Of a stretch of 64,000 nucleotides of DNA, positions 8,859-41,112 are shown piece by piece. The DNA lies in the NCBI RefSeq assembly GCF_947498095.1, contig NZ_CANMJE010000007.1, positions 62,001-126,000 on the forward strand. The letters run 5' to 3'. This stretch comes from an uncultured Shimia sp. Lineage in GTDB: Bacteria; Pseudomonadota; Alphaproteobacteria; Rhodobacterales; Rhodobacteraceae. Both the position numbers and the translations under genes were made by a program. The notes under the pieces are model-generated. The model was not told where the DNA came from and did not search any database. It saw only the letters and a program-made list of their open reading frames with translations. Within the stretch, counting starts at the first letter, position 1. Each line of letters opens with the position of its first letter.

Positions 8859-11276
8859 CTAAAAAGGAACGTCGTCCGGCAAGGTCACAAAGCTGGCGAC
8901 AACGTTTTTGATGCCCGCCTTGTCAAAGGCCACCGACAGTTTGTCGCCCTCGATCGCTTCAACAACCCCGTATCCGAATTTCTGGTGGAACACGCGGTCC
9001 CCGACGGTGAAACTCGACACGGCGTCCAGATCAATGACGCTGGTGCGGCTTTCCTTGGGCTGCGACAACCCATGTTGTCCAGCGCGGGATTGCATGCGTT
9101 TCCAACCGGGCGAATTATAGGTGTTGGCCTTGGCCACACGCTCATCAATCCCGCCCTGCCCGACACTGGCCGCAGCCCCGAAACCACCGCCATAGAGACC
9201 GGGCGGTGTGAGCACGTCGACGTGTTCTTCGGGCAATTCGTCAATGAAGCGCGACGGCATTTGTGACTGCCATTGGCCATATACCCGGCGATTGCCCGCG
9301 AAAGAAATGGTGCAGAGTTCTTCGGCACGGGTGATGCCAACATAGGCCAGCCGACGTTCTTCTTCGAGGCCCTTGAGGCCGCTTTCGTCCATCGAGCGTT
9401 GCGATGGGAACAGCCCATCCTCCCAACCTGGCAAGAACACCGCGGGAAACTCCAGACCTTTAGCTCCGTGCAAGGTCATGATGGTGACCTTTTGCTCGCC
9501 TTCTTCGGATTCGTTGTCCATGATCAGGCTGACGTGCTCAAGGAACCCTTGCAGGTTCTCGAAACTTTCCAGCGCCTTGACCAGTTCCTTGAGGTTCTCC
9601 AACCGCCCCGGAGCCTCGGGCGTCTTGTCGTTCTGCCACATGCTTGTGTAGCCGGATTCGTCGAGGACGATCTCGGCCAATTCGATATGGCTGAGATCAG
9701 GCGTGCCTTGCATCAGTTGGGGCGCGTCGTCTTCTATCACATCGGCGTTTGCGCCGACCTCGACCATTGGAACGGTGAGTTTGGTACGCCAACGGGCGAT
9801 GTTGTCGACTAACAGCTGTAACTCTTTCGCGCCTTTGCCACCGATGCCTTTGTCCTCAAGCAGAATGCGCGCGCCTTCGACCAGCGACACGCCATTTTCG
9901 CGCGCGCAGGTCTGGATTTTCTGCTGCGCGACATTGCCAAGTCCGCGTTTCGGCGTGTTGACGATGCGCTCAAAAGCCAGGTCATCATCCGGGCTGACCA
10001 CGACGCGGAAATAAGCCATCGCATCGCGTATCTCGAGCCGTTCATAGAAACGTGGGCCACCGATCACGCGGTAAGGCAGACCAATCGTCAGGAAGCGATC
10101 CTCAAAGGCGCGCATTTGGTGGGAGGCGCGCACGAGGATGGCCATGTCATCAAGCGACATTGGAGCATTGCCCCGGGTGCCCTTTTGCATCGCTTCGATC
10201 TCTTCACCGATCCAGCGGGCCTCTTCTTCGCCGTCCCAATGGCCGATCAGGCGGACTTTTTCACCGTCCTGGGCTTCGGTCCACAACTCCTTGCCCAAAC
10301 GGTCCTCATTGCCACGAATGACGTTCGAGGCGGCGGCAAGGATGTGGGGGGTTGAGCGATAGTTCTGTTCCAGCCGGACAACAAAAGCGCCGGGGAAGTC
10401 CTTTTCAAACTTCAAAATGTTGCCGACCTCGGCGCCGCGCCAGCCATAGATCGACTGATCATCATCCCCAACGCAGCAGATGTTCTTGTGCCCCTGCGCC
10501 AAGAGCCGCAGCCAGAGATACTGGGCGACGTTGGTATCCTGATACTCGTCGACAAGGATGTACCGGAACCAGCGCTGGTACTGGGCAAGGATGTCGGAGT
10601 TGTTCTGGAAAATCGTGACGACGTGCAGCAAAAGATCGCCAAAATCGACGGCGTTTAACTCAATCAAGCGTTTCTGATACTGCTCGTAAAGCTCACCGCC
10701 GCGATGGTTGAAGGCCGCAGCATCAGCGGAAGGCAATTTGTCCGGGGTCAAGGCCTTGTTCTTCCAACTGTCAATCAGGCTGGCCAACAGACGCGCGGGC
10801 CAGCGTTTGTCGTCGATATTGTTGGCTTGAATGAGTTGTTTCAGCAGGCGAATCTGATCGTCCGTGTCCAGAATGGTGAAATTCGACTTGAGATCGACCA
10901 ATTCAGCGTGACGACGCAGCAGTTTCACACAGATCGCGTGGAACGTTCCAAGCCACGGCACGCCTTCGATGGACCCGCCCAGCATATTGCCAACGCGGTT
11001 TTTCATCTCGCGCGCGGCCTTGTTGGTAAAGGTTACTGCGAGAATTTCGTTGGGGCGGGCGCGCTGCGTGTTCAACAGATGTACGATCCGCGCGGTCAGC
11101 GCCTTGGTCTTGCCGGTTCCCGCGCCGGCAAGCATCAGAACGGGACCATCCAGCCGCTCTACCGCTTCACGTTGGGCCGGGTTCAACTCGTCCAGATAGG
11201 GCGCGGGTCGCGCTGCCACAGCGCGGGCAGAAAGGGAGGCCCCTTCAAAGGCGTCGAATTCGTCAAAATTGCTCAT
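8859..11276 (-). CDS. uvrD: UvrD/PcrA-type ATP-dependent DNA helicase
   Basis: Superfamily 1A 3'-5' helicase of about 805 residues, for nucleotide-excision and mismatch repair. It shows Walker A AGAGTGKTKALT, Walker B DEYQDTN, motif III with GDDDQSIYGWRGA, motif IV QNYRS, and motif VI VGITRAEE. The C-terminal end carries the conserved FGYGVVEAIEGDKL strand segment of the PcrA/UvrD tail. I start at MSNFDEF because a LexA-type box lies just upstream and would fall inside the gene if the ATG at 11351 were used. Confidence 0.95.
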   Translation of the reverse strand: MSNFDEFDAFEGASLSARAVAARPAPYLDELNPAQREAVERLDGPVLMLAGAGTGKTKALTARIVHLLNTQRARPNEILAVTFTNKAAREMKNRVGNMLGGSIEGVPWLGTFHAICVKLLRRHAELVDLKSNFTILDTDDQIRLLKQLIQANNIDDKRWPARLLASLIDSWKNKALTPDKLPSADAAAFNHRGGELYEQYQKRLIELNAVDFGDLLLHVVTIFQNNSDILAQYQRWFRYILVDEYQDTNVAQYLWLRLLAQGHKNICCVGDDDQSIYGWRGAEVGNILKFEKDFPGAFVVRLEQNYRSTPHILAAASNVIRGNEDRLGKELWTEAQDGEKVRLIGHWDGEEEARWIGEEIEAMQKGTRGNAPMSLDDMAILVRASHQMRAFEDRFLTIGLPYRVIGGPRFYERLEIRDAMAYFRVVVSPDDDLAFERIVNTPKRGLGNVAQQKIQTCARENGVSLVEGARILLEDKGIGGKGAKELQLLVDNIARWRTKLTVPMVEVGANADVIEDDAPQLMQGTPDLSHIELAEIVLDESGYTSMWQNDKTPEAPGRLENLKELVKALESFENLQGFLEHVSLIMDNESEEGEQKVTIMTLHGAKGLEFPAVFLPGWEDGLFPSQRSMDESGLKGLEEERRLAYVGITRAEELCTISFAGNRRVYGQWQSQMPSRFIDELPEEHVDVLTPPGLYGGGFGAAASVGQGGIDERVAKANTYNSPGWKRMQSRAGQHGLSQPKESRTSVIDLDAVSSFTVGDRVFHQKFGYGVVEAIEGDKLSVAFDKAGIKNVVASFVTLPDDVPF

Positions 11277-36052: not shown

Positions 36053-36745
36053 ATGAAAATCATATGGCTTGGACATGGGTCTTTTCGCATTGAAGTCGCA
36101 GACAAGGTTCTGCTGGTCGATCCCTGGCTGACCGGCAACCCGGTGCTGCCCGAAGACCAGCACGAAGCCGCCGTCGCGGGTGGCACCCACCTGATCCTCA
36201 CACATGCGCATTTCGACCACGTGGCCGACATGCTGCCACTGGCGCGCAAACTCTCGATCCCTGTCATCGGGCAATATGACCTGATGGGCTATTGGGCCGA
36301 GCATGAGCACATCGAGACCATCGGCTTTAACAAAGGCGGTACGGTCGATCTGGGCGGCGTGAGCCTGTCGATGGTCCCCGCATCGCACAGTTCCTGCTTC
36401 GGCACCGACGAAGGCCCCAAGGCCTCAGGAACCGAGGTCGGATATATGCTGCGCGCCGAGGGCAAGACGGTCTACTTGTCAGGCGACACCGACGTCATGG
36501 CCGACATGGACTGGATGGGGGACTACTACAAACCCGACGTAGGCATCCTCTCGGCGGGCGGCCATTTCACCATGGACATGAAGGGCGCGGCATACGCGGC
36601 AAAACGCTATTTCAATTTCCAGACAGTGATCCCCTGCCACTACGGCACCTTCCCGATTTTGGAACAGTCAGCGGACGACCTGAAAGCCGGTTTGCCCGGG
36701 GTGGATGTTATTGAGCCACAGCTGATGCAAGCGATCGAGGTTTAG
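36053..36745 (+). CDS. UPF0173-type metal-dependent hydrolase (MBL fold)
   Basis: A 230-residue metallo-beta-lactamase-fold hydrolase. Metal motif HAHFDHVADM, downstream His in SASHSS-like VPASHSSCFG, YLSGDTDVMADM and VIPCHYGTF are the UPF0173 pattern. No signal is seen. SD AGGAGG precedes the ATG. It is followed after 4 bases by the first cyclase gene, suggesting one transcript with the cyclases. Substrate unknown; cyclic nucleotides or lipids are possible but unproven. Confidence 0.88.
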   Translation: MKIIWLGHGSFRIEVADKVLLVDPWLTGNPVLPEDQHEAAVAGGTHLILTHAHFDHVADMLPLARKLSIPVIGQYDLMGYWAEHEHIETIGFNKGGTVDLGGVSLSMVPASHSSCFGTDEGPKASGTEVGYMLRAEGKTVYLSGDTDVMADMDWMGDYYKPDVGILSAGGHFTMDMKGAAYAAKRYFNFQTVIPCHYGTFPILEQSADDLKAGLPGVDVIEPQLMQAIEV

Positions 36746-36749
36746 TCGG

Positions 36750-37721
36750 TTGGGCGACATCAAACCCTCACCGGAACTTGGCGCCATTGTGCGCCGCTGG
36801 CTGCGGTCCTATGCCTCGGGCGACAAGGACACAGTGGTCAATCTGTTCTCGGACGAAGCGTGCCTAGGCTATATCGGCTCATCCCATGACGAGGTCTGGC
36901 GCGGCGACACGCTGCGCCGCGGTATGGCCAGCTATATGGAGGACATCCCCAACTTTTCCTGGGATCGGGATGACTTTCGTGGCTTTGAATGCGGTCACCT
37001 CGGTTGGGTCGAATGGTTCGGTGAGCGTGTCTCTCTGGACAATGGCAAAGAGATCACATTTCGCTCGACCTTTGTGCTGCATCTGGAACAGGGCGTCTGG
37101 CGCATCGTTCATGTGCACAACTCGAACCCGGTCTCGAACATGCAGGCGTTGGGCTATGAATCGCGCGGTTTCGAAGACCTGCTTGAGGCGGCCATGGCAG
37201 CCCCAAGCGGGCTGACCCAGACCGGCATCGCGTCGGTCATGTTTACCGATATTGCTGACAGTTCCACCCTTGCCGAGGCTTTGGGCGATGCAAAATGGAG
37301 CACCGTGGTCCGCACACATCTTGGGTTGGTCACCAAGCTGATCGAAGACGCCGGAGGCGCGTTGGTGAAATCCCTGGGAGATGGCACGCTCTCGGCCTTT
37401 CCTTCGGTCAGCGCGGCGTTGCAGGCGGCAATCCTGATACAGCGGGAAAACGCGGCGCTGACAAGTGAGCCGAACCTGAGATTACGCGTCGGCATCCATA
37501 CCGGCGACGTGGTCCAGACCGGCGATGATTTCTTTGGCACCGTGGTCAATAAGGCCGCGCGGGTTGCGGCAGCCGCGGCCCCCAACGACATCCGCGTGTC
37601 CGAGGCCACCCGCGTTATGGTCGGCGGCAACAAAGAATTCAATTTTGCCGACGCAGCCTCGGTGCCCCTGAAAGGTCTCGACGGGGAACATCTGATTCAT
37701 CGGCTGGAGTGGCAGACATGA
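36750..37721 (+). CDS. SnoaL-like domain plus class III adenylyl cyclase, copy 1
   Basis: A 323-residue soluble protein. Residues ~7-130 form a SnoaL/NTF2-like pocket domain (DEVWRGDTLRRGM, FVLHLEQGVWRIVHVHNSNP). Residues ~158-323 form a class III cyclase that makes cAMP from ATP. Catalytic residues can be assigned: metal ligands D167 (FTDI) and D211; adenine-selecting K207 and D260; N267 and R271 in VVNKAAR. Start is TTG at 36750, 4 bases after the hydrolase stop, with GAGG upstream. It ends in ATGA overlap with copy 2. Confidence 0.85.
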   Translation: MGDIKPSPELGAIVRRWLRSYASGDKDTVVNLFSDEACLGYIGSSHDEVWRGDTLRRGMASYMEDIPNFSWDRDDFRGFECGHLGWVEWFGERVSLDNGKEITFRSTFVLHLEQGVWRIVHVHNSNPVSNMQALGYESRGFEDLLEAAMAAPSGLTQTGIASVMFTDIADSSTLAEALGDAKWSTVVRTHLGLVTKLIEDAGGALVKSLGDGTLSAFPSVSAALQAAILIQRENAALTSEPNLRLRVGIHTGDVVQTGDDFFGTVVNKAARVAAAAAPNDIRVSEATRVMVGGNKEFNFADAASVPLKGLDGEHLIHRLEWQT

Positions 37722-38692
37722 GCGATCCGTTCACCCCTTCGCCAGAGTTGGCGGCCATCGCAAAACGATGGATCAGCGTCTATTCAAGCCGACACCGCGA
37801 CGCCGCCGCCAACCTGTTCTCCCATTCTGCAGCGACCACCTATGTCGGATCGGACGAAGGCGAGATTCTGACGGGGCAAAACTTTCACAAGACTTTTGTC
37901 GCTTTTACCGAGGATCAGGCGGTTCTCGTTCCTCAAGACCTCGAAGTGAATGCCTATGAGGCGGGGTCCTTTGGCTGGGCTCTTTGCACGATGACCATCC
38001 TTTCGCCCGAAGCTGGCAAAACCGTCGCCTTTCGCAACACCTTTGTTTTTGCCCTGGAAAACGCCGTCTGGCGCATCGTGCATATCCACAACTCCAATCC
38101 CAAGCCCAACATGGAAGCGATGGGCTACACCTCACGCAGCCTCGATGAGCTGACCAAGTCGATGCAATCCGAAGCACTGGATCTCGGACACACTGGGATT
38201 GCCTCAGTCATGTTCACCGATATTGTCGACAGCACGGCTCTGGCCGCAGCAACAGGCGACATGGCGTGGAACGGCATTGTTCAGACGCACCTGACCCGGA
38301 TCGGCAAGGCCGTTGAGGGTCACGGCGGTACATTGGTCAAGACACTGGGCGACGGCACATTGTCATCCTTCCCCTCCGCAAGCGCGGCGCTGATGGCCGC
38401 CATCGACATCCAAAAATCCATGCGCGACGCCACTGAGGAACCGTTCCTGCGGATCAGGGTCGGCATCCATACCGGAGATGTTGTGGAACAGGACGGAGAT
38501 TTTATCGGCTCTGTCGTCAACAAAGCTGCACGGGTGGCTGCAGCTGCTGCGTCGGAAGAAATTCGCCTGTCAGAGGCAACGCGCATTATGGTGGGCGGGA
38601 GTGCCGCGTTCACGTTTGCCGATCCGCTCTCTGTGGCTCTGAAAGGGCTCGACGGAGAACATCTGATCCATCGGTTAGAGTGGCAGACATGA
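37718..38692 (+). CDS. SnoaL-like domain plus class III adenylyl cyclase, copy 2
   Basis: A 324-residue paralogue of copy 1. The N-terminal SnoaL-like part has FRNTFVFALENAVWRIVHIHNSNP; the cyclase has VMFTDIVDST, LVKTLGDGTLSSFP and GDFIGSVVNKAARVAA, keeping the metal ligands, the Lys/Asp pair that favours ATP and the Asn/Arg transition-state pair. The ATG overlaps the copy 1 stop (ATGA) with GGAG 8 bases upstream, so translation is coupled. The pocket lining differs from copy 1, which points to a different ligand. Confidence 0.87.
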   Translation: MSDPFTPSPELAAIAKRWISVYSSRHRDAAANLFSHSAATTYVGSDEGEILTGQNFHKTFVAFTEDQAVLVPQDLEVNAYEAGSFGWALCTMTILSPEAGKTVAFRNTFVFALENAVWRIVHIHNSNPKPNMEAMGYTSRSLDELTKSMQSEALDLGHTGIASVMFTDIVDSTALAAATGDMAWNGIVQTHLTRIGKAVEGHGGTLVKTLGDGTLSSFPSASAALMAAIDIQKSMRDATEEPFLRIRVGIHTGDVVEQDGDFIGSVVNKAARVAAAAASEEIRLSEATRIMVGGSAAFTFADPLSVALKGLDGEHLIHRLEWQT

Positions 38693-39648
38693 CCAAAGCC
38701 TCTCTGGAACTCTTGGCCGTTGCGCGCCGTTGGATCGCCGCGATCCCGAACAAGCGACCAAACGAGCTGCGCAACCTCATGTCTGAAGGGGATCACCTGC
38801 GTTTCGTCGGTTCGGGGGATGGTGAGCTGTGGTCCGGCCAGGCAGTGCGTGAGGGGGTCGGCGCGTTCTTTGGGGTGATACCGCCGTTTGCGACACACGA
38901 GGAAACCTTTGCCGAGGCGTTTGAGAACGGCGATACCGGCTGGGCTTGCTTCACCCACGAAATAGCCTTTGAAGACCGGCCTGACCGCCCGTTTGTTATG
39001 CGCAACACATTGATCTTCGCGCTTGAGGACGCGGCGTGGAAAGTGGTGCATCGTCACGGCTCAGTGCCAATCCCGAATATTGAGTTCACGGGCACCGAGC
39101 AAAGCGCCATTGCCGAGCTTGTGGACGCCGCAAAGCAGGATTTCTCGCTGGATCAGCGCGAGGGGTTTGCCTCGGTCATGTTCACGGACATCGTGAATTC
39201 TTCGGGCCTCGCCCCGATGTTAGGCGATCGGCTGTGGTCTTCCGAGGTGGCTCGGCACTTTTCCGGTTTGCGCGTCATCATCGAGCGCAATGGAGGGCAA
39301 TTCGTTAAGTCGCTTGGCGACGGCACCATGTCCAGTTTCCCGTCCCCAACGCAGGCCATACGCGCAGCACGAGCGATCCTCGCGGCAACAGACATCTCTG
39401 ACGGTCCGGCAATTTCCCTGCGAATTGGCATCCACACCGGCGACGTCGTTCAAACCGACGAGGATTTCTTTGGCACCGTCGTCAACAAAGCCGCTCGTAT
39501 TGCTTCGGTCGCGGCACCCAATGAAATTCGGCTGTCTGATACGACGCGCGAGATGGTCGACGATCCACGAGCCTTTCGCTTTCTCGAACCGGTCTCTGTG
39601 CGGCTCAAAGGTTTTGAGGGAGATCATCTTTTGTACAGGATTAAGTGA
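38689..39648 (+). CDS. SnoaL-like domain plus class III adenylyl cyclase, copy 3
   Basis: A 319-residue paralogue, the most diverged of the four in the N-terminal region (MRNTLIFALEDAAWKVVHRH retained). Cyclase motifs VMFTDIVNSS, FVKSLGDGTMSSFP and EDFFGTVVNKAARIAS are intact. ATGA overlap with copy 2. Absence of any transmembrane segment makes it soluble. It should work as a homodimer, or possibly as heterodimers with its neighbours. Confidence 0.86.
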   Translation: MTKASLELLAVARRWIAAIPNKRPNELRNLMSEGDHLRFVGSGDGELWSGQAVREGVGAFFGVIPPFATHEETFAEAFENGDTGWACFTHEIAFEDRPDRPFVMRNTLIFALEDAAWKVVHRHGSVPIPNIEFTGTEQSAIAELVDAAKQDFSLDQREGFASVMFTDIVNSSGLAPMLGDRLWSSEVARHFSGLRVIIERNGGQFVKSLGDGTMSSFPSPTQAIRAARAILAATDISDGPAISLRIGIHTGDVVQTDEDFFGTVVNKAARIASVAAPNEIRLSDTTREMVDDPRAFRFLEPVSVRLKGFEGDHLLYRIK

Positions 39649-40619
39649 CAGTCATGATCAAACCGTCCCCCGAAATCGAAGCCATCGTGCGGCGCATGTC
39701 CGACACGATCCGGTCCCACGAGGTCGCGGATCTGCCCCACTATTTCTCCAACGATGAGGCCGTCCTCTATGTCGGCACCGCCGAGGACGAAACCTGGCGT
39801 GGTCAAATCCTGCGTGATGGGATTTCAGCGCATTTGGCCGAGGTACCGGACTTTACCGAAGAAGACGTTGAAATCGAGGCCTGGGAACATGGCGATGTCG
39901 GCTGGGCCTTTCGCCAGACCACCTATCGCTTTGCCGATACCGGTGTCTCGGGCAAGCATCGGATCAGTTTTGTGTTTGTTATGGAACAAGGGCGCTGGAA
40001 AGTCATTCAGCACCACATCTCCAATCCGACGTCAAACCTCGACAAGATGGGCGTTGAACACCGCGCGTTTCGCGACCTGCTTGCCGCTGCCGAAGACGAA
40101 CAACTGGTCGTTGGTCTCGAAGGGCTTTCGTCCATCATGTTCACCGACATAGCCAACTCAACAGCGCTGGCAGAAGCGGTTGGAGACCGTATCTGGCATG
40201 GGGTGCTGGCCGAACATCTGACCGCTGCGGAAGAGATCATCACTCTACACGGTGGCCGTCTCGTCAAATCGCTGGGGGACGGTACAATGTCGGCCTTTCC
40301 GTCGGCCCGGGGCGCAATGTCGGCGGCTTTGGCTTTGCAGGACAGCACCGTAAGTCAGGCATCTGAACCGCCTCTCTCGATCAGGATCGGCATCCACACA
40401 GGCGAGGTGATCGCCACGGATGACGACTATTTCGGCGTGGTCGTGAACAAGGCTGCCCGTATCGCGGCATCCGCACGACCGGACGAGACCCGTGTGTCGG
40501 ATGCAACTCGACTGATGGCAGGCAACGCACCTGACTTTGGTTTTTCGAACCGTTCAGAGATTCCGCTCAAAGGGTTAGAGGGATCGCATGCCGTCCATGT
40601 GCTGGAAAAACAAGCCTGA
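39645..40619 (+). CDS. SnoaL-like domain plus class III adenylyl cyclase, copy 4
   Basis: A 324-residue paralogue. N-terminal domain: DETWRGQILRDGISAHLAEV, then FVMEQGRWKVIQHH. Cyclase: IMFTDIANST, LVKSLGDGTMSAFP, DDYFGVVVNKAARIAA, with all six catalytic positions kept. I use the GTG at 39645, which overlaps the copy 3 stop as GTGA; an ATG three codons later is the alternative. It is the last gene before the convergent tadA gene. Confidence 0.86.
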   Translation: MTVMIKPSPEIEAIVRRMSDTIRSHEVADLPHYFSNDEAVLYVGTAEDETWRGQILRDGISAHLAEVPDFTEEDVEIEAWEHGDVGWAFRQTTYRFADTGVSGKHRISFVFVMEQGRWKVIQHHISNPTSNLDKMGVEHRAFRDLLAAAEDEQLVVGLEGLSSIMFTDIANSTALAEAVGDRIWHGVLAEHLTAAEEIITLHGGRLVKSLGDGTMSAFPSARGAMSAALALQDSTVSQASEPPLSIRIGIHTGEVIATDDDYFGVVVNKAARIAASARPDETRVSDATRLMAGNAPDFGFSNRSEIPLKGLEGSHAVHVLEKQA

Positions 40620-40659: not shown

Positions 40660-41112
40660 TTAGGATCGTTTTTCAGCAAAGAAATCTTTTAGCAGCGCCT
40701 CAGAATCCTCCGCGGAAATGCCGTCATAGACCTCAGGAACATGATGGCTTTGAGGGTGGTCGAACACGCGTGGTCCTTGGGCGACGCCGCCCGACTTTGG
40801 ATCGGCAGCACCGAAGTAAACTCGCGCGATGCGGGTTTGGCTGATGGCACTGGCGCACATGGGGCAAGGTTCCAGCGTCACGTAAAGGTCATGCCCCGGT
40901 AGGCGTTCGCTACCCAAGGCCGTGCAGGCCTCGCGCATGGCCAGGATTTCGGCGTGGCCCGTAGGGTCGCTGAGCTCGCGGGTTCGGTTGCCCGCAGAGG
41001 CCACGACCTTGCCCTCAGGCGACACGACCACTGCCCCAACGGGGACTTCGCCGCGTGCACCGGCCTTGCGCGCCTCTGCCAGCGCTTGTTCCATGAAGCT
41101 TGTGAACACCAT
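40660..41112 (-). CDS. tadA: tRNA-specific adenosine deaminase
   Basis: A 150-residue zinc deaminase that converts A34 of tRNA-Arg(ACG) to inosine. HAEILAMREA supplies the zinc His and proton-shuttling Glu; PCPMCASAI supplies two zinc Cys. Family length. Nucleotide-deaminase neighbours are absent. It is divergent from the pseudouridine synthase gene, as in many Rhodobacterales genomes. Confidence 0.93.
   Translation of the reverse strand: MVFTSFMEQALAEARKAGARGEVPVGAVVVSPEGKVVASAGNRTRELSDPTGHAEILAMREACTALGSERLPGHDLYVTLEPCPMCASAISQTRIARVYFGAADPKSGGVAQGPRVFDHPQSHHVPEVYDGISAEDSEALLKDFFAEKRS

Follow-up and report, generated by a model that had tools for sequence, protein, structure and literature searches.

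Four tandem SnoaL_3 and class III cyclase genes in a Shimia genome may form a bank of distinct inputs to one cAMP pool

The window analyzed here, a stretch of 64,000 nucleotides from an uncultured Shimia sp., carries four adjacent genes that each encode a SnoaL_3 domain followed by a class III cyclase domain. We propose that they form a bank of translationally coupled, soluble class IIIc-like cyclases, in which SnoaL_3 input pockets would respond to different ligands per class and feed one cAMP pool, a reading that we regard as evenly poised between right and wrong.

Organization of the array

The four genes lie on the plus strand. Copy 1 (36750..37721, TTG start) encodes a SnoaL_3 domain at approximately residues 12 to 128, a linker at approximately residues 126 to 156, and a class III cyclase domain at approximately residues 157 to 320. 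The same SnoaL_3-cyclase arrangement is found in copy 2 (37718..38692, ATG start), copy 3 (38689..39648, ATG start), and copy 4 (39645..40619, GTG start), and the N-terminal domains of copies 1 to 4 belong to sensor classes A, B, C, and D, respectively. Each start codon overlaps the preceding stop codon, through ATGA at 37718 to 37721 (copies 1/2), ATGA at 38689 to 38692 (copies 2/3), and GTGA at 39645 to 39648 (copies 3/4). This layout of four head-to-tail reading frames across 36750 to 40619 had been described in an earlier note on this DNA and was confirmed. The open reading frame list places the copy 2 ATG inside a GTG-started frame running from 37709 and gives a GTG start at 38680 for the frame holding the copy 3 ATG. 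We infer that the four genes are translationally coupled and are carried on one transcript.

Four bases upstream of copy 1 is the stop codon of a UPF0173/PRK00685 metal-dependent hydrolase gene (36053..36745, plus strand; NCBIfam NF001911, 219.8 bits, cutoff of 144), the probable first gene of the operon. A tadA-like gene for a tRNA adenosine deaminase (40660..41112, minus strand; NF008113, 121.9 bits, below the cutoff of 150) is convergent to the array and closes the slot. Promoter- and terminator-like matches between 35900 and 41300 were no more common than in shuffled sequence.

The order UPF0173, one to five cyclases, tadA recurs in 35 of the 77 loci of relatives, and where the contig of a syntenic relative is long enough, tadA is mostly found at the corresponding position. 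The cyclase family itself is patchy, being present in 15 of 394 sampled family genomes, the window's own included; a plasmid collection yielded one matching record, 44% identical, from Ruegeria conchae. A DoeA-like M24 hydrolase gene stands in line with the cyclases in 14 of the 35 syntenic loci (TIGR02993, 504 to 508 bits for the three proteins scanned, below the cutoff of 613) and is absent beside the window array. The same gene directly follows UPF0173 in six genomes of the window's genus group with no cyclase-family match at an E value of ≤1e−25. We therefore take it to be a companion of UPF0173 and reject it as a cyclase partner. A comparison of the 24 dispersed loci yielded no conserved catabolic partner gene that would reveal the ligand; what they share are broad families, namely, ABC-transporter ATPase-like genes at 5 loci, short-chain-dehydrogenase-like genes at 4, and another cyclase-like gene at 3; several neighbors are common only to the closely similar Ruegeria loci L080, L082, L084, and L085. 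Pfam searches of ten dispersed-locus neighbors returned a mixture of metabolic, transport, and regulatory genes.

The catalytic domains are predicted to be ATP-type and class IIIc-like

All four copies exceed the Pfam cutoff of 21.9 bits for Guanylate_cyc (PF00211), scoring 56.9, 49.8, 50.2, and 64.1 bits for copies 1 to 4. The residues D167, K207, D211, D260, N267, and R271 are invariant among them, so that each copy is predicted to hold a complete ATP-type catalytic set, as had been claimed; we take these to be the two metal-binding aspartates, the lysine and aspartate of ATP-type substrate recognition, and the asparagine and arginine of the transition state. The six residues are present in all 99 aligned full-length family copies. 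Relatives were found with the patterns [AS]S[VI]MFTDI and [LF]VK[ST]LGDGT, which contain D167, K207, and D211 and thus favor these residues in the copy by which a locus was found; the other copies of each array were not picked by the patterns.

The spacings had been likened to those of mammalian adenylyl cyclase. This holds for D167 to D211 (44 residues) and for D260, N267, and R271 (7 and 4 residues), but not for K207 to D260, which are separated by 53 residues in the window copies and by what we take to be 80 in the mammalian C2 domain. A short dimerization arm defines the class IIIc subclass, as in Rv1900c and Ma1120, and the distance of 53 residues appears to place the window cyclases nearer to these short-arm enzymes than to mammalian C2. 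In keeping with a short arm, residues 153 to 315 align to Ma1120 with a single 3-residue gap. Ma1120 and Rv1900c are also the best relatives in the PDB, both by sequence (E values of 7.9e−27 and 1.8e−20) and by the fold of the catalytic domain (TM scores to the target of 0.95 and 0.93). Judged from sequence, the window enzymes probably make cAMP from ATP.

The N-terminal domains are diverged and have a predicted SnoaL/NTF2 fold

SnoaL_3 (PF13474) was likewise recognized in every copy, at 53.3, 44.8, 51.2, and 67.9 bits against a Pfam cutoff of 22. The N-terminal domain of copy 1 was modeled with high confidence (pLDDT of 91.8, pTM of 0.86), and NTF2-like PP_4556, AtzH, and CaMKII-type domains lead the best 50 of the 534 PDB matches that Foldseek returned for this model (E ≤ 0.001). 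The Pfam matches and the NTF2-like model thus support the predicted SnoaL/NTF2 fold. The marked divergence reported for these domains was also borne out: they are 31 to 40% identical among the four copies, versus 50 to 68% for the catalytic domains. The residues R105, W117, H123, and S125 are invariant across sensor classes, but they are also present in 3h51, 3f7s, and 3soy, unrelated proteins of solved structure, and therefore identify no ligand.

Sensor classes are shared among genera and do not recur within an array

N-terminal domains of the family fall into five large classes (A to E) and five smaller groups (F to J), the latter named after inspection of the tree. Mean within-class identities of the N-terminal and catalytic domains are 80.8% and 70.4% for class A, 59.0% and 66.1% for class B, 66.8% and 64.2% for class C, 69.3% and 57.2% for class D, and 71.5% and 57.8% for class E. 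Between classes at different loci (1,360 pairs), the corresponding values are 36.6% and 50.7%. In four of the five large classes, the conservation of the sensor thus equals or exceeds that of the enzyme; class B is the exception, its N-terminal domain being the more alike in only 3 of 28 pairs. On this comparative evidence, the sensor classes are old and common to several genera.

Among 56 full-length copies in 14 arrays, no class was repeated within an array. When the labels were shuffled, a procedure that takes no account of common descent among the arrays, 9.0 repeats arose on average, and none of 20,000 draws was free of them. In a check that uses no labels, the maximum N-terminal identity among 88 within-array pairs was 50%, and two additional arrays from outside the set that defined the classes also contain no repeat. 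Related bacteria thus have one to five such genes at a shared genomic position, with no class seen twice in an array, a pattern that points to a bank of different inputs to one internal signal.

The likeness of junctions 1/2 and 2/3, 971 bases apart, had been read as marking the ends of an ancestral duplication unit. The likeness is real, amounting to 72% DNA identity over 255 nucleotides between the 3′ ends of copy 1 (37467..37721, plus strand) and copy 2 (38438..38692, plus strand), but the duplication reading is not supported, given the age of the classes and a class B-like catalytic domain in copy 1. The copy 1 N-terminal domain is 80 to 88% identical to those of eight of nine class A relatives (59% in L045) and 31 to 40% identical to those of its three array neighbors. 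Being nearer to class A of other genera than to those neighbors, it led us to reject a recent tandem duplication. Its catalytic domain, in contrast, does show the pattern expected of such a duplication, being 68% identical to that of copy 2 and 55 to 60% identical to those of class A. The six highest catalytic-domain identities among 80 class A-class B pairs all include copy 1, and none of the other pairs among the 88 within arrays reaches the catalytic identity of copies 1 and 2. The junction likeness is thus more likely to reflect the apparently class B-like catalytic domain of copy 1. General homogenization of catalytic domains within arrays was not supported, between-class identity being 51.9% within a locus (43 pairs) versus 50.7% between loci. 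An approximately unbiased (AU) test did not reject class A as a catalytic-domain clade (P = 0.349 with 99 rows and P = 0.301 with 24 rows). The test has little power here, because for the N-terminal domain, where the class A clade is supported (98/96), a grouping of copy 1 and class B likewise escaped rejection (P = 0.235).

Proposed mechanism and alternative readings

In the mechanism that we favor, each N-terminal SnoaL_3/NTF2-like domain would be a small-molecule input pocket, and its occupancy would alter the arrangement of the dimer through the linker, in which S125, N130, G135, L144, A147, and G159 are conserved. The rearrangement would alter the catalytic site, to which two cyclase domains jointly contribute. 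Sensor classes would respond to different ligands, and the cyclase outputs would flow into a single cAMP pool sensed by CRP-family regulators; 9 cNMP_binding matches in the genome to which the window belongs are candidate cAMP readers. We infer ligand binding, gating, dimers, and cAMP as the product. The multi-input device proposed in the earlier note is supported in part, by the fold, the catalytic set, the diverged sensors, the large classes that cross genera, and the absence of repeats.

An unlikely alternative is that the N-terminal domains are dimerization modules that insulate cotranslated paralogs from one another, or allow chosen heterodimers, the class differences being interface codes. 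Class III cyclases require dimers, cotranslated paralogs would benefit from insulation, and oligomerization folds of the NTF2/SnoaL and CaMKII hub types are among the structural matches of the copy 1 domain. Single-copy loci nevertheless carry the same N-terminal classes as arrays, though no array partner is present. Moreover, a gapless alignment to CaMKII alpha places positions 88, 108, and 124 on the arginines R433, R453, and R469, which we take, in a mapping made without coordinates, to be ligand contacts of the hub. Position 124 is class specific (N, N, G, I, and V in classes A to E), as is position 88 in three classes (E, C, and H in A, C, and E), whereas position 108 shows next to no class specificity (F in four classes, L in C).

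We give somewhat less credence to the idea that all classes sense one ligand, or a narrow ligand family, with differences in affinity or direction that yield a graded range. A polar set common to classes A to E (R16, E48, R105, H123, S125, and N130) would fit such a scheme, but R105, H123, and S125 recur in the unrelated SnoaL_3-like proteins, identity between classes is only about 37%, and class-specific positions are scattered, occurring in helices 1 and 3 as well as in strands 3 to 6.

It is improbable that paralogs simply pile up and decay at a permissive spot, as gene-family turnover without specialized function. The patchiness of the family and the existence of broken or partial copies (L048, the third copy of L049, L065, L066, L095 to L097, L143, and L144) are what turnover would produce. 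Against it, full-length copies include no same-class duplicates, the order is partly fixed, with class A first in all 10 arrays that contain it, and the catalytic residues are kept in all 99 full-length copies. Values of dN/dS of 0.04 to 0.31 for both domains (15 hand-picked pairs), well below 1, indicate that both are under purifying selection.

An enzymatic role for the SnoaL domain, which would make the proteins bifunctional in small-molecule turnover and cyclization, is very improbable: many SnoaL/NTF2-like proteins are enzymes, and UPF0173 and, in relatives, the DoeA-like hydrolase stand in line with the cyclases, but an incidental reading of the N-terminal domains noticed no named SnoaL enzyme's catalytic set, and the domain does not stand alone in the 394 family genomes, since each of the 33 matches falls within an open frame that is 321 codons long or longer. 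Two shorter frames with the domain from a separate search, G821 (174 codons) and G771 (241 codons), are broken copies with adjoining cyclase parts.

Relation to known systems

Ma1120 (Mycobacterium avium) and Rv1900c (M. tuberculosis) resemble the window copies in the sequence and fold of the catalytic domain, but their solved fragments lack SnoaL_3, and Rv1900c/LipJ is a hydrolase-fold and cyclase protein. We know of neither as an array of the same architecture. The window N-terminal domain belongs to the same family as AtzH and the CaMKII association domain by Pfam and fold; SnoaL_3/AtzH-type proteins stand alone and the CaMKII domain follows a kinase, whereas in the window the domain heads a nucleotidyl cyclase. 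CHASE2 was not detected in the four window copies (Pfam, E ≤ 1).

Three published systems come close. Shewanella oneidensis SO4407 has SnoaL_3 and GGDEF domains, and diguanylate cyclase activity is reported for it (PMC7666153); it too places SnoaL_3 ahead of a second-messenger synthase, with c-di-GMP as the product. Sinorhizobium meliloti CyaD1, CyaD2, and CyaK are described as paralogous receptor-like class III cyclases that act jointly on the CRP-type Clr (PMC4222275, PMC13001267); their sensors are CHASE2 (PMC13001267), unlike the SnoaL_3 sensors of the window copies. The ECF56 sigma factor SigG1 also has a SnoaL-like domain on a regulator, in this case SnoaL_2 at the opposite, C-terminal end of a sigma factor (PMC7730460). 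A search of open-license PMC papers, mostly by title and abstract opening, found no account of an array like that in the window.

Implications

Beyond the favored bank of inputs lies a wider idea, possible though we lean against it, in which the roseobacter UPF0173-tadA slot would be the socket of a combinatorial chemical keyboard. Some 10 SnoaL groups, each with its own cyclase module, would be kept or exchanged at one to five per array without repeats, the catalytic domains being swappable, and the cAMP level of each species would be the sum over a particular set of metabolites.

It is, to our knowledge, an open question why bacteria maintain numerous class III cyclases whose output is always a single diffusible messenger. 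The locus offers a compact test of cyclase multiplicity, in which slot and kind of enzyme stay the same while the sensors differ. Arrays found in nature have between one and five inputs; together with single-class variants, they could reveal whether such banks sum their inputs. The distinct classes also limit the number of NTF2-like pockets to be examined when ligands are sought in marine bacteria.

Gene organization and catalytic residues

Open reading frames of copies 1 to 4 lie on the plus strand at 36750-37721, 37718-38692, 38689-39648, and 39645-40619, joined by stop-start overlaps of ATGA, ATGA, and GTGA. Both SnoaL_3 and Guanylate_cyc exceeded the Pfam cut-offs in all four, bearing out the earlier description of head-to-tail cyclases with SnoaL-like N-domains. 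Upstream, a UPF0173 (PRK00685) hydrolase gene has its stop ending at 36745, and it and the four cyclases are probably one transcript; a tadA-like gene (40660-41112) on the opposite strand faces copy 4.

The N-domain of copy 1, modeled alone with AlphaFold from 75 sequences (pLDDT 91.8, pTM 0.86), was grouped by Foldseek with NTF2-like proteins, AtzH, and CaMKII-type domains, in agreement with the proposed fold. The full-length AlphaFold model, from an alignment of 98 relatives, reached pLDDT 86.5, with an ill-defined region at about residues 130 to 156. At six linker positions (S125, N130, G135, L144, A147, and G159) the residue named is the most frequent and occurs in at least 91% of 99 copies, a conservation which suggests that the linker acts as a transmission element.

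The six catalytic residues align identically in all four copies. The earlier note had given them the spacings of mammalian adenylyl cyclase; this held for D167-D211 (44) and D260-N267-R271 (7 and 4) and failed for K207-D260, which is 53 residues versus 80 in the mammalian enzyme. By this measure the copies are nearer to short-arm class IIIc enzymes. Ma1120 and Rv1900c are the nearest solved enzymes both by sequence and by fold. ATP specificity in class III cyclases is read from the K207- and D260-type positions, and from these residues we infer that the four copies would be ATP specific.

Distribution of the family

The search of genome contigs matched 77 loci. The family adjoins UPF0173, as in the window, in 35 of these, 13 with at least two full-length copies, 19 with one, and 3 whose copies are all broken or partial; it lies elsewhere in 24 (including the broken L048 and L097), and 18 matched in the catalytic part only. 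Broken copies in the slot of relatives (L049:9913-10877, L065:8942-9376, L066:7998-8954, and L144:949-1887) show split frames, plus one internally shortened copy, and look like signs of loss.

By title, 56 of the 59 loci carrying the family belong to Rhodobacteraceae or roseobacter genera. The exceptions are metagenome-assembled genomes (MAGs): L076 (Alphaproteobacteria), a class E member that clusters with Ruegeria on the full-length tree, L073 (Rhizobiaceae group), and L068 (Spirochaetaceae). The last has a full-length copy (L068:7235-8197; 42%) on a short contig, which may be either a transfer or a mis-binned contig. In the whole-genome searches, scoring was limited to a few top candidates per genome and may have missed matches, so their counts, which include the window's own genome, are lower bounds: at least 13 of 295 family-level genomes (E ≤ 1e-50; one catalytic part only) and 3 of 398 phylum-level genomes (one catalytic part only) and, by N-domain search, at least 15 of 394 family-level and 20 of 292 order-level genomes. 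Class III cyclases gave 19 matches in the own genome, of which 5 belong to this family. The fifth member (L038; G000:C13:512-1477), away from the array, belongs to a clade of dispersed copies in which it has close relatives from Ruegeria, with N-domain end branches below 0.04 on the quick tree, which suggests transfer between genera.

A DoeA/EutD-like M24 hydrolase gene stands in line in 14 of the 35 syntenic loci, after the cyclases or between them and UPF0173; three scanned proteins scored 504 to 508 bits, under the ectoine-hydrolase cut-off of 613. Several roseobacters have it in line with UPF0173, with or without cyclases (among others L045:11873-13045, L058:6800-7972, L041:12878-14047, and L163:1501-2658). 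Among 25 genomes from the window's genus group, 6 have it directly after UPF0173, with no intervening cyclase. It is absent from the window, and the closest gene in the own genome, on a different contig, is 48% identical. At four of the 24 dispersed loci, one or two class III cyclases that differ in architecture (TPR, alpha/beta hydrolase, or an unnamed N-terminus) lie within about 6 kb: L083:3339-6915, L073:9066-10961, L078:6265-7536, and L080:2468-3907 and 9237-10472.

Among the open-licence PMC papers listed by the literature searches, none had a title or abstract opening on SnoaL_3-cyclase proteins or their arrays, in line with the earlier note, which knew of no such system. The nearest functional parallel found there is SO4407, a SnoaL_3-GGDEF protein (PMC7666153).

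Sensor classes

Classes were drawn from a tree of the 99 full-length copies and separate quick trees of the two domains. Copies 1 to 4 fall in separate classes, A to D, each with members in other genera. Classes A to E hold 10, 8, 19, 10, and 13 rows, with N-domain SH-aLRT of 95, 99, 99, 99, and 96. Smaller groups F to J (2 to 7 rows each) were named after the trees were made; F, H, and I have support of 86 to 92, and J consists of two similar rows from Ruegeria.

Mean N-domain identity is 59 to 81% within classes versus 36.6% between them, compared with 57 to 70% versus 50.7% for the catalytic domain, in line with the strong N-domain divergence noted within the array. The N-domain is the more alike in none of 88 within-array pairs, and within classes in 35/45 (A), 44/45 (D), 70/78 (E), 96/171 (C), and only 3/28 (B) pairs. 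These identities indicate that the sensors diverged early and, class B excepted, were thereafter conserved no less strictly than the enzyme. dN/dS was 0.04 to 0.31 for both domains in 15 chosen pairs. The weakly supported C-domain tree splits each of the classes A, C, D, and E, a pattern that would fit catalytic-domain swapping; for class A, the only class tested, a catalytic-domain clade was not rejected.

No class occurs twice in any of 14 arrays (56 full-length copies; broken copies of L049 and L065 omitted): A-B-C-D (window, L043), A-J-I-C-D (L089, L052), A-C-B-G-E (L044), A-C-B-H-E (L041), A-C-D (L040), A-C-H-E (L039), C-H-E-F (L057), I-C-E (L050), B-F-D-G (L053), A-C-F-D (L045), G-F-D (L065), and, with its first copy left unclassed, ?-C-D (L049). 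When the 56 labels were shuffled among arrays, repeats averaged 9.0 and 0 of 20,000 draws had none; this test overstates the surprise because arrays share ancestry. Without labels, the highest N-domain identity in any within-array pair is 50%. Six further regions, four already represented, added two arrays with UPF0173: A-C-B-H-E and, more loosely (44 to 56% to classes), G-E. Across all 16 arrays, class A comes first in the 10 having it, and exactly one of D or E is present in each, terminally in 14. The simplest history starts from an old array in which each class had a single founder; copies were then lost differentially, reshuffled to some extent, and transferred to other sites. L169:4162-5517 and L041:10914-11885 share a class H N-domain at 100% identity, versus differences of about 2 to 16% in the other four classes of these two arrays, which hints that one module was exchanged recently.

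Junctions and the catalytic end of copy 1

Junctions 1/2 and 2/3 are indeed alike. Their proposed role as ends of an ancestral duplication unit fits poorly with the old age of the sensor classes. The copy 1 N-domain is 80 to 88% identical to eight of nine class A relatives (59% in L045). The copy 1 catalytic domain is 55 to 60% identical to class A relatives versus 68% to copy 2, and the top six catalytic identities among 80 A-B pairs all include copy 1, which points to a probable replacement or conversion of its catalytic end by a B-type one.

Proposed mode of action

The chief rival to a sensory role is that the N-domains serve as dimer codes. Under the preferred sensory reading, each cyclase dimer would be set by its own pocket, through presumed gating by presumed ligands; the outputs of the four cyclases would sum as cAMP, the likely product, which would act via a subset of the nine cNMP-binding proteins encoded in the own genome.
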